Source of the DNA: Candidatus Moraniibacteriota bacterium
GTDB taxonomy: Bacteria; Patescibacteriota; Minisyncoccia; Moranbacterales; UBA1568
Direction: 5' to 3'
Length of the DNA: 32,939 nt
NCBI GenBank assembly: GCA_013334575.1
Contig: JAAXXG010000010.1
Span: 1 to 32,939 of the forward strand
Below are positions 12,320 through 32,939 of the stretch, one piece after another; the first letter of the stretch is position 1; the number at the start of each line of letters is the position of its first letter. Under the pieces are notes generated by a model, which made no database searches, had not been told where the DNA came from, and saw only the letters and a list, made by a program, of their open reading frames with translations. Made by a program: the position numbers and the translations under genes.

Positions 12320-13768
12320 TTATGATGCGTTCACGGTCACCGCCTTGCGGACCAGTCCGCTCCCGTCGATATCGACAGATCCCGTCTCCGTCCCGTACCC
12401 GTCGCCCGAGACCTCGTATTCGTACGTTCCCTCCGCAAGCGGATCGGACGATGTCGGGAAATACGCATGACCGGCGCCGTCCGTCGCCACGGTCGAGTCG
12501 TATCCGAGCGTCGCGCTCCGCAGCCGGACCGACAGCCCGGAAACCGGAACGTCGTTCGGCGTCCCGCTCGACGAATCCGTCATCGTCACCGTGAACAGGA
12601 CCGAATCAAGCGACAAGTCCGCGAAACGGAGTCGGACCGTCGCATCAGTTCCGGCATCGAGATTGAACGCCTGCGAACCGGCGGAGGCAACCGGGTCGAT
12701 ACCGACGAACTCCATACCCGGGACGGATCCGACGGACGAGAACTCGTACGATCCCGGGCACCGGTCGGCATACTCCTTTTCGCCGGATGATCCGGTATCG
12801 GACGAGGACGTGAAATCGTAGACTGGGACGGGTACCGTAGAAGGCGCAGGCGGCGCGGGAGGCGGCTCCGTTCCGAGTTGAAGCCCCCCGGAAAGCGTGA
12901 ATGCCACGTCGGGAATGGCGTTTCCGGCCATATTCTCGCTTCGGATCGTCAAGTCGGCCGTCCGGCCGATGGAAAACGACTTCTGGTTGACCGATCCGGC
13001 GATAACGGCGATATCCGAATCAAGCGGGTCGAATGCCGATTCCGGATACGGAGGATATGTCCGCACACCGCAGTACCCCGACTTCGACACCGCTATCGAA
13101 TATCCCTCGCCAGGAGGTGTCCCGGGCCAGGCCTGATTCCCGAACGCGTCCGTTTCAGCGGAAAGATTCACGCCCGTCGACGCGTTTACGATGTGGACGA
13201 CCGCCCCCTCGACCGGGTCCGCGGCCGGATCGAGGACATTGACGGACAGCACGCCCGTATTCGATGGCTGTTCGACTCCGTCCGGCGAGAACGAGGCCCA
13301 CGCGACGACCCGCTGTCCGGCTTCCGCGTCCGCCCAACTCACCTCGACACGGACGCGCTTGTAATCGGTCGGAATGACATCTGTCGGCGATCCCGAGGAC
13401 GTGCCGTCGAACGGATCGTCGACATACTGCGCGACGGTATGTACCGTAAACGACGAACCGCTCCGCTCGACGGTCTCCGTCTCCAGGATATCGCCCGGCG
13501 GGATGCCGTACATGAATCCGCCCGACCCGTCGGGCTGCTTGGTTCCGATGACATCGTACGGAAGACTCCGGATCATCTCCATCCGTTCCGCGGCGAGCGC
13601 GGTTGCGCCGAGTTTGCGACGCGAATCGAGGATACGCTTGGAACCGAGCGCGAACAGCTGGTAGAACGTGAGCACGATGACCGAAAACAGGAAGAGCACC
13701 AGCGCGGCTTCGATAAGCAGGAAGCCGTGTCTCCGCCCGCATCGCGCGTTTCGGATCGTTCCGTTCAT
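12320..13768 (-). CDS. Large type IV prepilin fused to Cna-B/carboxypeptidase-regulatory-like beta domains
   Basis: The 482-residue protein has a type IV prepilin signal near its N-terminus: RRHG | FLLIEAALVLFLFSVIV, with glycine at -1 and glutamate at +5, and a normal pilin helix through about residue 45. ALAAERMEMIRSLPYDVIGT follows, a common minor-pilin helix end. The exported part is far larger than a normal pilin. At about 170-230, TGVLSVNVLDPAADPVEGAVVHI with a DAFGNQAWPG turn looks like a Cna-B or carboxypeptidase-regulatory-like domain. At about 410-470 a second such unit appears (VPVSGLSVRLRS, VATDGAGHAYFPT, EGTYEYEVSGDGYG). A proline-rich segment (TEPPPAPPAPSTVPVPV) lies between. 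These domains are typical stalks of Gram-positive adhesins, so a tip or adhesive pilin is inferred. It starts 7 nt after pilC. Confidence 0.82.
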   Translation of the reverse strand: MNGTIRNARCGRRHGFLLIEAALVLFLFSVIVLTFYQLFALGSKRILDSRRKLGATALAAERMEMIRSLPYDVIGTKQPDGSGGFMYGIPPGDILETETVERSGSSFTVHTVAQYVDDPFDGTSSGSPTDVIPTDYKRVRVEVSWADAEAGQRVVAWASFSPDGVEQPSNTGVLSVNVLDPAADPVEGAVVHIVNASTGVNLSAETDAFGNQAWPGTPPGEGYSIAVSKSGYCGVRTYPPYPESAFDPLDSDIAVIAGSVNQKSFSIGRTADLTIRSENMAGNAIPDVAFTLSGGLQLGTEPPPAPPAPSTVPVPVYDFTSSSDTGSSGEKEYADRCPGSYEFSSVGSVPGMEFVGIDPVASAGSQAFNLDAGTDATVRLRFADLSLDSVLFTVTMTDSSSGTPNDVPVSGLSVRLRSATLGYDSTVATDGAGHAYFPTSSDPLAEGTYEYEVSGDGYGTETGSVDIDGSGLVRKAVTVNAS

Positions 13769-27316: not shown

Positions 27317-27886
27317 ATGCGAAGCCAGAACAAACGAACCGATACTCCGGTCACGAGACCGTCCCGTCTGGAAGAATTCGCCTTCGGGGCGATCCGATCG
27401 GTCGGATCCATCCCCTCTCTGGTCGTCCACACCGTCCTCTTCATAGGCATATTCACACTGCAGCTCCTCGGTTTCTCGTTCGACCAGATCATGCTCATCC
27501 TCACGACGATCGTCTCGCTCGAGGCGATCTATCTCTCGATCTTCATCCAGATGTCGGTAAACCGACAGTCCGTACGGATCGACGAGGTCCACGAGGACGT
27601 CGAGGAGATTTCGGAGGATATCGACGACATTTCGGAAGACGTCGAGGAACTCTCCAAGGATATCGACACCATCCAGGAAGAGGTCAAGGAAATCGGCGAG
27701 GACGTCGAGGAGATTTCGGAGGATATCGAGGAAATCTCGGAAGACGTCGAAAAGGTCGGGGAAGAGATAGAGAAGGACGATCACGAGGACAGCGTCGAGC
27801 GGACCGAGGACCTCGCCCGCCTTGCGAAGATCGAGTCGACCCTCGAGGTGCTGCTCAAGCAGATCCGCGATCTGGATCGTCGTTAG
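27317..27886 (+). CDS. DUF1003-like two-helix membrane protein with a nine-heptad coiled coil
   Basis: The 189-residue protein has two membrane helices at about 35-55 and 57-80 (SLVVHTVLFIGIFTLQLLGF and MLILTTIVSLEAIYLSIFI). The pattern FDQIMLILTTIVSLEAIYLSIFIQMSVNRQS matches the hallmark of DUF1003: S-L-E-A followed by a helix and an N-R-Q motif. The cytoplasmic part (about 93-155) is nine near-perfect heptads of the form EDVEEIS, with I/V at positions 3 and 6. It ends in an acidic EEIEKDD and a conserved-looking C-terminal LARLAKIESTLEVLLKQIRDLDRR. DUF1003 function is unknown. The helix pair plus coil suggests an oligomeric membrane scaffold. It is last in its operon and is followed by a strong convergent terminator. 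Confidence 0.82.
   Translation: MRSQNKRTDTPVTRPSRLEEFAFGAIRSVGSIPSLVVHTVLFIGIFTLQLLGFSFDQIMLILTTIVSLEAIYLSIFIQMSVNRQSVRIDEVHEDVEEISEDIDDISEDVEELSKDIDTIQEEVKEIGEDVEEISEDIEEISEDVEKVGEEIEKDDHEDSVERTEDLARLAKIESTLEVLLKQIRDLDRR
27593..27781 (+). repeat. 21-nt tandem repeat (nine units) encoding heptads
   Basis: Nine consecutive 21-nt units encode heptads EDVEEIS, EDIDDIS, EDVEELS, KDIDTIQ, EEVKEIG, EDVEEIS, EDIEEIS, EDVEKVG and EEIEKDD. A 33-base segment is repeated exactly at 27592-27624 and 27697-27729. The pattern fits expansion by slippage or unequal recombination. Confidence 0.9.
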
Positions 27887-27979: not shown

Positions 27980-30900
27980 TCAGGAGGCCTCGCCGGATCG
28001 CTTCCGTCTTCGGTAGAGGAAAGCTGCAAGGATGGCTGCACCGATTACCGCGATTACCGCGACGGGAACGGTTGCGGAATTCTCTTTCGGCGCACCGGCA
28101 TCCTTTTCCGTGAGTTCGAAGGCGAACGACCGGCTTGGGAAGCTCTTCAGGCCGCGCTCGGAGTCGAGCGCGACAACGTATGCCTCGTGCTGCCCAGGCT
28201 TCAGATACAGGTCTTCCTGACGATGATCATACCGCCAGTTCCCGTCCGTATCGACGCGGAGCCGCTTCACGATCCGGGCTTCGGAATGAACGAACAAGAC
28301 GACGTCAGAATCGGGAGTCCCCGTCCCCGAGAACCGGACGACGCCCTCCTCGGGAAGGAATAGGATCTCCGAAATTTCCGGCACTTTCATATCACCCGTC
28401 TCGGTCGCCTCGTCGAGACTCCGAAGCGCCTCGTGATCGACCGAACCGTCCATATCGGATTCCGTCGAGTCACTTCCGGAATTCAAGTCCGTTTCGCCAT
28501 CGTCGGACCGCCCGGACAGCGCTTCGCGGATCGATTCCACGATCGGACGATGCCGATGGCGTTTGCTATTGTCATCATCATCGTCATCGCCATCATCGGA
28601 CCCCGACCCTCCTTCGGAACAGGAAAGGAGGACACTGCCCGGATACCTGAGAGGATTCGTATCGTCGCAATCATCATCGGCCGACGAATACCCATCCGGC
28701 GCAACGCATGCCGTTCCGATCGCCGCACCCGAACCGTACCCGTCCCGATCGGCATCAGCATAGTACGGCGTATCCGTGGCATATGTGTCACCGTTCGACG
28801 GAGCGCAGTCCCCTCCCTTCGAGGCATACCCGGACGGGGGATCCTCCGGAAGCCGGCAGGCCGTGATCGTGTCGCTGAAGGTCCCGTAGCCGTCCCCGTC
28901 CACATCCGGATAAAAGGTCCGTTCGGCATGCACGGAAGCGTCGCCATCGTTACAGTCGTCCGACGCGACATATCCGTCCGAGTCCGCGTCCGTACAGCTG
29001 TCGGAGCCGTCGCAATCGAAGGAGAACGTGTACAGATAGACGGTCCCCGGAGCCATTCCGCCCGATTCGCCGCCGGTCCGCTCGTCGACCACGAAGTCCG
29101 CGGAATAATTCGAGAGGTCGATATCCCGCGATACGATGGCGATGTTCTCCTCGGTACGATTGCTGTCACGGGGATCCGCCGGCGTGCCGTCCGGACGGGC
29201 AAGCTTGTGCAGCGTCACCTTCGACGGCACCTTGTCGCCGAACGGCAGATGAAGCGTGACCGGCGTGAACCCGTCTCCGAACGTGACGTCGTCATGCGTG
29301 CCGTCGAGCTTCCGGGAAAGGACGAAAACCGAGTAGTCCCCGCGCGAATCCCGCATCGCATACGAGCTCACGAGCGGGATTTCGGTCCCGTTCCGCAGAT
29401 ATGTCGGTGCCGAATTTACAGTCGCCGAGACCATCGTTTCACCGGAAGCGTACCGGTTCCGCATGGTAAGCGCGAGCCAGCCGGGATGCGGACGGAATCC
29501 GCCCTGTTCCGGCATCGTATGGGACGTCCACCAGTTTCCGCTCTGGAAACCGAGATAGTTCTGATACGTGTATCCGTGCAGACTGGAGTAGAGCCAGGCA
29601 TCGAGCGCCGCGACGCCCATCGCGAGAGACTTGCCGTACTGCTCGTCGACTTCCGTTCCGGCGCCGGACCAGTATCCGCTCGGGCCGCCCTCGTACGCGG
29701 TAAGGGAATAATCCGCCGAATCGGACGCCTTCAACGTATCACGTGCGGCAGCCGCATTCCGGATCAGCATCTGCACGGTCGAACTCGTTACCGGACCGAC
29801 CAGCGTTTCCTGTATCCCGTGGTCGTTGAAGCTTTTTGATCCCGTATCGCCCGTTTCCCACTTCGGTCCGACATAGTTCGCGTGGCCAAGGTACGTCGCC
29901 GCGGTCGTCTGCTGCATCGCCTGCTCGCCGTACGCGGTCAAGCCGGTCGTCCCGGTGATGTAGTTCGCCCCGAGAGCGAACTTGATCTTGTCTCCAAGAC
30001 CGTATCGCTTCCATTCGTCCGAACCCTGTACCTGCTCCCCGAGCATGTACTGCGCGAACAATCCGTATTCCCTCCCGCCATAGTTGATGGTTCCCGGCTC
30101 ACTGAATCCGTTCCATCCGTACCCGCCGGCTCCTTGATGCCAGGTCTCGTTCCCGTACTCGATCACGATTTCCCGGAATTCGGCGGTCCACGGCGTCCCG
30201 TCGTGATCTCGCTGGATGTACCGCTTGTACGCGTACGGCTTCGAGACTTCCGTATCCGTCGACGGATCATACGGAACGCCCAGATATTCGACGACCGCGT
30301 TCAGGTCGTTCTCGGTGTACTCCTCGGGAACCGTGATCCACGGAACGACTCTCGTCGCGGCCGAATCGCCGGTTTCGTACGCCCACCCGATACTCTGGGC
30401 GATCGTACCGTTATTCCCCGTCCCGATATCGCCGGTCGTCGAGTTGAAATCGCTGTCGGCATAATTGCCGAGGATCGCGCCTACCTCCGAATTATTGTAC
30501 TGGAGAGGATAGAATCGCACCGCCGGCTTCGTTCCGGTCGCGGGAAACGCATCGAGCATCGGATCGATCGAATTCACATGAGGACCGAACGGCCTATACC
30601 CGCTCCGCGCGTCGTATTCGTAGATAAGCCAATTGTCGACATAAAGGGTTCCCGGGCCGGTGAAATTCATCGTGTGCGCGATATACCCCGGCTCGGAAGG
30701 ATATTCCGGCGCGACGAAATCGTAGGTGAATTTCTTCCACTCGCCGGTCACCGTCCACGGATCGCGCTGATTCGCCTCCGCATAATGGGAATCCCCCGTC
30801 CCTTCGAACGCGAACCTCACGTGTCCGTCGTCTCCGAGTCCGTCCTGACGCATCCAGGCCTCGACCCGGTACGTGGTACCCGGATGCAACTGCGAGTACC

Positions 30901-32939
30901 AGAGATCGGTATCATTGCTTCCCTCATAGACATACTGACCGAACTTCTTCGTACCCGAGGTGGTCGCCTCGAGCCGCAGACAGGTATCACCCGGATCCTC
31001 ATCCCTAAACTCCTGAGGAACCGTTCCGGGATGCTCGACGAGTCGGCCTGTCGTCCCGTCGGCCCAGAACAGGTTCAGGCTGCCGGGATGATTCACGTCG
31101 CGATATTTCTCGAGACGCGAGCTCATCTTCTCGGCGGGCATATACGGCGACTTCATGCTGACGAAGACGTAGTCGCCATAGGCGAGCGTGATGGGCTGGT
31201 CGATATACATCCGTTTCTCGCCACCGTCGGCGGTATCGATGACGAATCCGCCGTTCGGAAGCGCCTCGTTCGGTTCGGGAATATGCGCCTCACCGAGAAA
31301 GACGACATGGTCCGCTCCGGAGGGATCGTGCATGCTGCTCGAATAGGAAAGCGGGTTTCCGTTCTCGTCGACCAGACGGTAGAACCGGACGGTCGCCCCG
31401 TTCCAGAACCCCGTCGCCCTGGTATCCCATCCGTTCATGCCACCGTTGTAATCCCACTCGATCCAACGATATCCGTTCTTGACGCCCGTCCGCTGGATGC
31501 GCTGAAGATCACGGAAGAAGGCGGGCTCGAAACCGCTCGAATGGACGAAGTTATTGATCGCGAAGTTCGTGCCGCCGGCGACCGACGTCAGGTTCGCCCC
31601 GATGGCTTCGACCCCGGACGTGACGACATCCGTCCCGATCGTGATATCCGCGGTCGCACCAGGATTGTCAGAAGCGTCGGCATCGTCGGCATCCCCGCCG
31701 AGCAACACGTACCCGTCCGGAGCGGTACCCTCACAGACTCCGACCGCACTGGCAGCCAATCCCCATCCATCGCCGTCGACATCCTGATAATACTGTCTCG
31801 GGTATTTCGAAGAGTCCGTATCGTTACAATCACCGGATTCGGCCGCGTAACCGTCGGGAGATTCCGTCGTCACGCTGCCGCAAACCTGCGTCGTAGAATC
31901 GGACAACCCGTACCCGTCACCATCACCGTCCAGGAAGAACGTCCGATAAAAAACCTTCTTATCCGTCGGATTGCAGTCGTCCGCGTTCGAGACGTATCCT
32001 GAGGGAGCTCCGCACGACTGTTTTGTCGAAGCTGGATCCCCATACCCGTCGCCGTCGGTATCGGCATAATACGTCGTCACCTCGAAGGCGTCCGCATCCT
32101 GATCGTTGCAGTCCTCGGAGAAGTCGACGCCGTCCCCGTCCTGGTCGGCCTCGCCCGTGAAGACGGTGAGGACGGGATGAGTGGCCATCTTCCAAAGATT
32201 GCGGATGCCGGTATCGTCGTTCTCTCCCCCGATGAAGTCCCAGGCCGAGGAGAGTCCTTCGGAGACGAGGCTCGTGAAGGTCGCGACGAGGCCGAGTTCG
32301 GTATCGGACTTGGCGGTGATTTCCTGACCGGAACAGCCGCCGAAACCGGCCTCGGAAGTCGAGGGGCAGGCGCCGATCGAGGAGGTGAGGGAATCCTCGT
32401 TGTAGAAGGAATTCGTGATCGTACCATCATTATAGGCGAGGAAGGCGCCGATGCGGGAGGTATTGCCGATCACGTCGCCGTCGACGTAGGAGTCGGAGAT
32501 GTCGCCGCCGTGGTTCTCGACGACAAAGCCGGCGGCTTTCCAGTTCGCGGTCGACGTGACCACGACGTCGGTATAGCTGTTCGCGATATCGGACCAGTTG
32601 GTGCTCGCCAAACCTCCGGGTCGACCGCCGGTCACGGCTCCCGTGACGGATATGTTCTCTATAGTCGAAGAGGAACACACGAGATTCCCTGCCAGACCGC
32701 CGGTATACGTCCCGCCGGTGACATCGACACCGGAAAGACCGATATTCCTGACATACTTCACGTTGAAGTCCATGTATCCGAACAGTCCGACATAATCCGT
32801 CTTCGGACGATCGATATACAACCCCGATACCGTATGCCCCTTCCCGTCGAATCCGCCCTGGAACGGCTGCGTCCGACTCGGTCCGATCGGCTCGAACCCG
32901 GCACCCGAATTCCAGGTCGACGTATCGGACGCGTCGATG
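27980..32939 (-). CDS. Giant cell-surface protein: GLUG, MopE repeats, glycosidase-like module, Ig-like domain, C-terminal anchor (N-terminus outside window)
   Basis: The frame is open to the window edge, so 1652 residues are visible and the N-terminus is missing. Residues about 20-250 are GLUG-type adhesin repeats (GGFDGKGHTVSGLYIDR, YVGLFGY, TYTGGLAGN). Residues about 262-425 hold MopE-type metal-binding repeats (ADTDGDGYGD, DVDGDGWG, DCN-D motifs). Residues about 440-1305 look like a glycosidase of the clan-A type. It includes an inserted carbohydrate-binding-like sandwich (about 670-770, HPGTTYRVEAWMRQDGL), EYGNETWH with candidate acid/base E931, and LTAYEGGPSGY with candidate nucleophile E1083. 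MopE repeats recur at about 1309-1450, followed by an aspartate tract. An Ig-like domain (about 1517-1610) and a membrane anchor with tail LYRRRKRSGEAS close the protein. Substrate and GH family are not assigned. TTG at 32821 is only an internal codon. Confidence 0.85.
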   Translation of the reverse strand, partial: IDASDTSTWNSGAGFEPIGPSRTQPFQGGFDGKGHTVSGLYIDRPKTDYVGLFGYMDFNVKYVRNIGLSGVDVTGGTYTGGLAGNLVCSSSTIENISVTGAVTGGRPGGLASTNWSDIANSYTDVVVTSTANWKAAGFVVENHGGDISDSYVDGDVIGNTSRIGAFLAYNDGTITNSFYNEDSLTSSIGACPSTSEAGFGGCSGQEITAKSDTELGLVATFTSLVSEGLSSAWDFIGGENDDTGIRNLWKMATHPVLTVFTGEADQDGDGVDFSEDCNDQDADAFEVTTYYADTDGDGYGDPASTKQSCGAPSGYVSNADDCNPTDKKVFYRTFFLDGDGDGYGLSDSTTQVCGSVTTESPDGYAAESGDCNDTDSSKYPRQYYQDVDGDGWGLAASAVGVCEGTAPDGYVLLGGDADDADASDNPGATADITIGTDVVTSGVEAIGANLTSVAGGTNFAINNFVHSSGFEPAFFRDLQRIQRTGVKNGYRWIEWDYNGGMNGWDTRATGFWNGATVRFYRLVDENGNPLSYSSSMHDPSGADHVVFLGEAHIPEPNEALPNGGFVIDTADGGEKRMYIDQPITLAYGDYVFVSMKSPYMPAEKMSSRLEKYRDVNHPGSLNLFWADGTTGRLVEHPGTVPQEFRDEDPGDTCLRLEATTSGTKKFGQYVYEGSNDTDLWYSQLHPGTTYRVEAWMRQDGLGDDGHVRFAFEGTGDSHYAEANQRDPWTVTGEWKKFTYDFVAPEYPSEPGYIAHTMNFTGPGTLYVDNWLIYEYDARSGYRPFGPHVNSIDPMLDAFPATGTKPAVRFYPLQYNNSEVGAILGNYADSDFNSTTGDIGTGNNGTIAQSIGWAYETGDSAATRVVPWITVPEEYTENDLNAVVEYLGVPYDPSTDTEVSKPYAYKRYIQRDHDGTPWTAEFREIVIEYGNETWHQGAGGYGWNGFSEPGTINYGGREYGLFAQYMLGEQVQGSDEWKRYGLGDKIKFALGANYITGTTGLTAYGEQAMQQTTAATYLGHANYVGPKWETGDTGSKSFNDHGIQETLVGPVTSSTVQMLIRNAAAARDTLKASDSADYSLTAYEGGPSGYWSGAGTEVDEQYGKSLAMGVAALDAWLYSSLHGYTYQNYLGFQSGNWWTSHTMPEQGGFRPHPGWLALTMRNRYASGETMVSATVNSAPTYLRNGTEIPLVSSYAMRDSRGDYSVFVLSRKLDGTHDDVTFGDGFTPVTLHLPFGDKVPSKVTLHKLARPDGTPADPRDSNRTEENIAIVSRDIDLSNYSADFVVDERTGGESGGMAPGTVYLYTFSFDCDGSDSCTDADSDGYVASDDCNDGDASVHAERTFYPDVDGDGYGTFSDTITACRLPEDPPSGYASKGGDCAPSNGDTYATDTPYYADADRDGYGSGAAIGTACVAPDGYSSADDDCDDTNPLRYPGSVLLSCSEGGSGSDDGDDDDDDNSKRHRHRPIVESIREALSGRSDDGETDLNSGSDSTESDMDGSVDHEALRSLDEATETGDMKVPEISEILFLPEEGVVRFSGTGTPDSDVVLFVHSEARIVKRLRVDTDGNWRYDHRQEDLYLKPGQHEAYVVALDSERGLKSFPSRSFAFELTEKDAGAPKENSATVPVAVIAVIGAAILAAFLYRRRKRSGEAS
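28600..29020 (-). repeat. C-terminal MopE-type repeat block in the giant surface protein
   Basis: Three or four units of the form D-x-D-G-D-G-Y-G then about 20 residues with a cysteine, then D-C-N/D-D. Seen are DADSDGYVASDDCNDGD, DVDGDGYGTF with GGDCAPSNGD, and DADRDGYGSG with DDDCDDTNP. This is the putative metal-binding motif of MopE-like surface proteins. Confidence 0.85.
31650..32160 (-). repeat. N-terminal MopE-type repeat block in the giant surface protein
   Basis: Four units again pair an Asp/Gly calcium-like loop with DCN/DCND. These are DQDGDGVDFSEDCNDQD, DTDGDGYGD with ADDCNPTD, DGDGDGYGL with GDCNDTD, and DVDGDGWGL with GGDADDAD, the last lacking its cysteine. Confidence 0.85.

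Follow-up and report, generated by a model that had tools for sequence, protein, structure and literature searches.

A Moranbacterium gene predicted to encode a surface-tethered, multi-domain glycosidase with a GH51-related clan GH-A module

The window analysed here, a stretch of 32,939 nucleotides, ends in a large gene that forms a single unbroken open frame, truncated at its 5' side (Table 1). Because the contig stops at position 32939, the start codon, the signal peptide and the true length of the protein are not visible. In the encoded protein, an 882-aa module lies between two blocks of DxDGDGYG repeats; GLUG repeats precede the first block, and the second is followed by an acidic linker, an Ig-like domain and a single transmembrane anchor. 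The other genes of the window are ordinary, encoding a MiaB-type radical SAM protein, pilM, pilO-like, pilX-like, T2SSF, uvrA and uvrC. CarboxypepD_reg and SdrD_B-like domains are found in a 482-aa protein encoded amid the pilus-type genes (12320-13768, minus strand). The gene at 27317-27886 (plus strand), which converges on the large one, encodes a membrane protein of 189 aa that contains a long repeat, acidic and heptad-like (ISEDVEELSKDI...). The host genome (1.13 Mb, 22 contigs) is 99% complete. The original prediction supposed a CPR host and was right in this, as both the source of the DNA and its genus mate G001 are Moranbacteria; the lifestyle of this Moranbacterium is probably symbiotic.

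The whole arrangement recurs at 65% identity in the genus mate (G001, locus L001) and, from residue 274 onward, in a further CPR assembly (L002), and is therefore not a matter of chance. In all three CPR assemblies the large gene lies at a contig end, namely position 32939 of the window, the start of L001 and the start of L002. All three break within the N-terminal part of the gene; the version in L001 extends to at least 1877 aa and has a duplicated repeat block. When the own genome was searched with the L001 N terminus, the missing 5' end was not found elsewhere.

Table 1. Parts of the large gene, with coordinates in the window and the basis of each assignment
Feature	Residues	Coordinates	Strand	Basis or remark
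Whole open frame	1652 aa	27980..32938	-	5' end absent at contig end
GLUG-repeat region	about 27-260	32159..32860	-	PF07581, three stretches, E 1.5e-5
First DxDGDGYG / DCNDxD repeat block	262-425	31664..32155	-	loops at 293, 337, 386
Predicted glycosidase module, unit common to other phyla	427-1308 (882 aa)	29015..31660	-	homology
First barrel segment (GANL...GFEP)	440-475	31514..31621	-	alignment, far homologs, GH51 sequences
Inserted CBM4/9-like carbohydrate-binding module	about 650-770	30629..30991	-	PF02018, profile, fold
(beta/alpha)8 barrel, strands 2-8	about 805-1160	29459..30526	-	AlphaFold, Foldseek, HMM matches to GH51
Codon of E931, predicted acid/base (EYGNETWH)	931	30146..30148	-	invariant, n=23; aligned with GH51 GNE
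Codon of E1083, predicted nucleophile (AYEGGPSG)	1083	29690..29692	-	invariant, n=23; last residue of strand 7
C-terminal beta-sandwich of module, GH51-like position	about 1165-1306	29021..29446	-	pLDDT about 75-90 mostly
Second DxDGDGYG / DCNDxD repeat block	1308-1445	28604..29017	-	loop at 1345, repeats in sequence
Ig-like domain	1518-1600	28139..28387	-	homologous to C-termini in seven relatives and own genome
Single transmembrane anchor and basic tail	1620-1644	28007..28081	-	hydropathy up to 2.57

The N-terminal repeats had been called GLUG-like, and PF07581 indeed scores 25.5 bits against a cut-off of 20.5 when the segment is scanned alone; GLUG repeats are also found in L001 (PF07581, E 3.7e-7). 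Two MopE-type metal-binding blocks had been proposed to flank the module. DxDGDGYG loops do flank it, and exact copies of the loop occur four times in the protein, whereas 500 shuffled sequences averaged 0.01, but the MopE label holds only in part, as PF11617 scores 11.3 bits where its cut-off is 27. With MopE-type repeat proteins the blocks share DxDGDGYG loops and the first half of the motif, GDCNDxD, whereas the match here covers 13 of the 30 model positions (1-13 only). tblastn finds relatives of the first block in Flavobacteriales and Deltaproteobacteria, and the second block matches first-block repeats of L001. The first block, of the DxDGDGYG / DCNDxD type, probably binds calcium or another metal. 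The Ig-like domain is weak in Pfam (Big_13, E 0.026) and homologous (E 3e-7) to the C terminus of another protein of the own genome in which Big_13 exceeds its cut-off. Both this domain and the C-terminal membrane anchor, a sole hydrophobic segment at about 1619-1644 followed by YRRRKR, are as predicted. Big_13 is present in L041. Varied surface-type proteins of the same group of Patescibacteria (L033-L039, L041) have a common C-terminal Ig domain and membrane anchor, often together with TSP3-like repeats.

Residues 427-1308 recur as a unit well beyond the Moranbacteria. Two other Moranbacteria have the module at 71% and 55% identity, a Planctomycete and a Schekmanbacterium at 53% each and a Fimbriimonadacean at 40%, and relatives at 20-30% identity occur in further Planctomycetota and in exopolysaccharide clusters of Thioclava. 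The Planctomycete homolog (L003) is a stand-alone form of the module with a signal-peptide-like start. On Thioclava plasmids, copies of 27% identity lie within exopolysaccharide clusters, between a gene for a calcium-binding (RTX) protein and an oligosaccharide flippase gene. Profile searches add matches in Planctomycetota (14 of 343 genomes) and Armatimonadota (27 of 201), many weak matches covering the carbohydrate-binding part alone. In Patescibacteria the module is rare: it is found in two of the six genomes of the genus and in L002, and 380 Patescibacteria sampled across the group gave no further full-length match. A search of phages and viral contigs gave no homologs. In the tree, the three CPR rows, L003 and L004 form one fully supported set of five, within which the CPR rows may group as one clade (support 72/80). 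The module is a discrete family common to several phyla. Lateral acquisition fits this distribution, its direction being what we infer; most likely the module was gained laterally by a few Moranbacteria and then fused to their own surface anchor. The Ig domain and membrane helix are common to other proteins of related genomes, and therefore the lineage appears to have joined its own anchor to a cross-phylum enzyme.

What does the module do? The original prediction pointed to two motifs, EYGNETWH (from residue 927) and LTAYEGGPSGY (from residue 1079), with glutamates E931 and E1083 lying 152 residues apart, as they do, and read them as the acid/base and nucleophile of a clan-A glycosidase. Both glutamates, as well as N930, R808 and Y1022, are invariant among 23 aligned sequences with identities as low as 17%; the latter three are positions typical of clan GH-A. 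Compared with known structures, the profile of these 23 sequences matches the GH51 arabinofuranosidases 3s2c, 4atw and 3ug3 at E 4e-6, over the region of strands 2-4 and as far as their GNE. By hhalign, the module aligns with four GH51-type sequences from Planctomycetota at 96.0% (score 79), compared with scores of 12-22 (at most 0.4%) for 20 column shuffles and 17.5 for the reversed profile. The sequence homology to GH51 is significant over strands 2-4, and the alignment fits the acid/base region well while leaving the nucleophile column unfixed. Since the barrel was poorly formed in an AlphaFold model of all 882 residues of the module (mean pLDDT 58, pTM 0.34), a second model was made of residues 776-1308 (pTM 0.63, mean pLDDT 62), its confidence being moderate because the alignment had only 6 sequences. 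In this model strands 3-8 alternate with helices and strand 2 is poorly formed. E931 lies 3 residues past strand 4 (923-928) and E1083 is the final residue of strand 7 (1078-1083), in keeping with the expectation that the two would mark the ends of these strands. The fold search that had been suggested, run with this model against the PDB by Foldseek, returns clan GH-A glycosidases: the best matches are all GH51 (E 5e-12, TM 0.56-0.61), followed by GH79 heparanase, GH30 and GH39 PslG, with a probability of 1.00 for GH51, GH79, GH30 and GH39. Profile, profile-profile, model and invariance tests agree and are largely independent of each other, and they support the proposed roles of the motif pair.

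The barrel is interrupted by a further domain. An inserted sandwich had been suspected to be a carbohydrate-binding module, and it is of the CBM4/9 type: PF02018 (CBM_4_9) scores 27.1 bits against a cut-off of 25.9, and CBM4-2 of the Rhodothermus marinus xylanase (1k42) matches the domain by profile (E 1e-6) and by fold (E 9e-7). It is placed after the GANL...GFEP segment and ahead of the remaining barrel. Compared by eye, the GANL...GFEP segment seems to resemble GGLYAExxxNRDF of GH51. The beta-glucanase EngU of GH148 likewise has a CBM4 within its clan GH-A barrel, inserted there after strand 4, between the catalytic glutamates (PMC5725463). In the window protein, by contrast, the domain (about 650-770) precedes both glutamates (931 and 1083), and because of this difference membership in GH148 was rejected.

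The closest solved family, by both profile and fold, is that of the GH51 alpha-L-arabinofuranosidases (3ug3, 4atw, 3s2c, 6d25, 2c7f, 6zta), which share with the module strands 2-4 with the GNE acid/base and a C-terminal beta-sandwich. The module differs from them in its nucleophile motif, in a large extra N-terminal region and in its carbohydrate-binding domain, and identity in the fold match is about 11-14%. At E up to 10, the C-terminal GH51 model PF06964 does not match the window protein, and its match to homolog L055 is weak (E 0.016). GH79 heparanase and GH39 PslG have the same clan fold, and PslG is tied to an exopolysaccharide cluster as are the Thioclava homologs, but their fold scores are lower and they lack a sequence match. 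No enzyme model of Pfam or NCBIfam recognises the module, a PDB sequence search with the single protein gave nothing but chance terminase matches, and a literature search found no described family of such a kind. The module is GH51-like and belongs to clan GH-A, GH51 membership itself lying beyond what the evidence supports; most likely it is a retaining glycosidase of a family unnamed in Pfam and NCBIfam.

We therefore favour, at a probability of roughly 0.78, a surface-tethered, multi-domain glycosidase of the Moranbacterium whose GH51-related clan GH-A module cuts extracellular polysaccharide. In such a protein the module would form a (beta/alpha)8 barrel with a CBM4/9-type insert after its first segment and a C-terminal beta-sandwich, and E931 as acid/base and E1083 as nucleophile would carry out retaining hydrolysis. 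The GLUG and calcium-type repeats would serve as stalk and adhesin, and the Ig domain with its one membrane helix would tie the protein to the cell. Outside the cell, the carbohydrate-binding domain would hold on to a polysaccharide chain while the barrel cuts it, and we guess that this either frees sugars or opens a path through the exopolysaccharide of a neighbour or a biofilm. The polysaccharide may be that of a host cell, of a biofilm or of plant debris. The genomic context agrees with a glycosidase: GH116 and GH65-like genes are neighbours of homologs, the Fimbriimonadaceae homolog (L005) adjoins a GH148-like gene, and the Thioclava copies belong to exopolysaccharide clusters.

It is conceivable, if unlikely, that the module is simply a divergent member of the GH51 arabinofuranosidases and removes arabinose from plant-type hemicellulose as an exo-enzyme. 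GH51 is, after all, the nearest solved family, and the GH51-type sequences L090 and L091, read by eye, have a GG...F segment like that of the module and after it, at a comparable position, an inserted sandwich. Against this speak the absence of any GH51 match in Pfam up to E 10 for the window protein, a nucleophile motif, YEGGPSG, unlike the DEWN or GEYA type of L090 and L091, and the location of the Thioclava homologs in exopolysaccharide clusters. Less probable still is that the barrel is an inactive relative, a dead glycosidase fold in an adhesin that binds polysaccharide through its carbohydrate-binding domain. Such a role would suit a module that shares its protein with adhesin-type repeats and an anchor, and catalytic activity is a prediction; yet in all 23 sequences, stand-alone homologs included, both glutamates are unchanged and so are the N, R and Y of the clan, and decay of catalysis would not preserve them.

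The fusion itself might be an artefact of assembly or binning, in which a Planctomycete gene was joined onto a CPR contig. The nearest relatives outside the CPR, at 53% identity, are from Planctomycetota and Schekmanbacteria, and the contig-end position of the gene in every CPR assembly could point the same way. However, module and Moranbacteria anchor share one frame in three assemblies, the window and L001 are collinear in the downstream flank, and the G+C content of the gene (60.2%) is close to that of the rest of the window (59.2%), which makes such an origin very improbable.

CPR genomes are reported to encode few or no secreted glycosidases (PMC9868632, PMC7143001). Joined to an anchor of the lineage itself and carried by two of six genomes of one genus, the predicted tethered glycosidase is a concrete enzyme candidate that touches on the question of how CPR cells obtain sugars or reach the surface of a host, and its catalytic module marks an unannotated enzyme family that is present in exopolysaccharide clusters as well. 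We suggest tentatively, and with rather less than even confidence, that the module founds a clan GH-A family absent from CAZy, with members in Planctomycetota, Armatimonadota and Schekmanbacteria as well as in alphaproteobacterial exopolysaccharide clusters, and that a few CPR cells have made it into a tethered cutter of the polysaccharide coat of a host or biofilm. Novelty is judged here against Pfam and NCBIfam, and a CAZy family covering the module may already exist. The GH148-like gene beside the Fimbriimonadaceae homolog (L005:9250-11823) has a Cellulase/GH42-like region, CBM_4_9 at 293-410 and the motifs IELNNEN and AVTEFD. In Planctomycetota, a branch of 790-930 aa proteins (L059-L065) with the motifs E[WFY]GNE[LSG]W and YE[ILV]N[FY]H, without a Pfam enzyme family, is homologous to the module (hhalign 100%).
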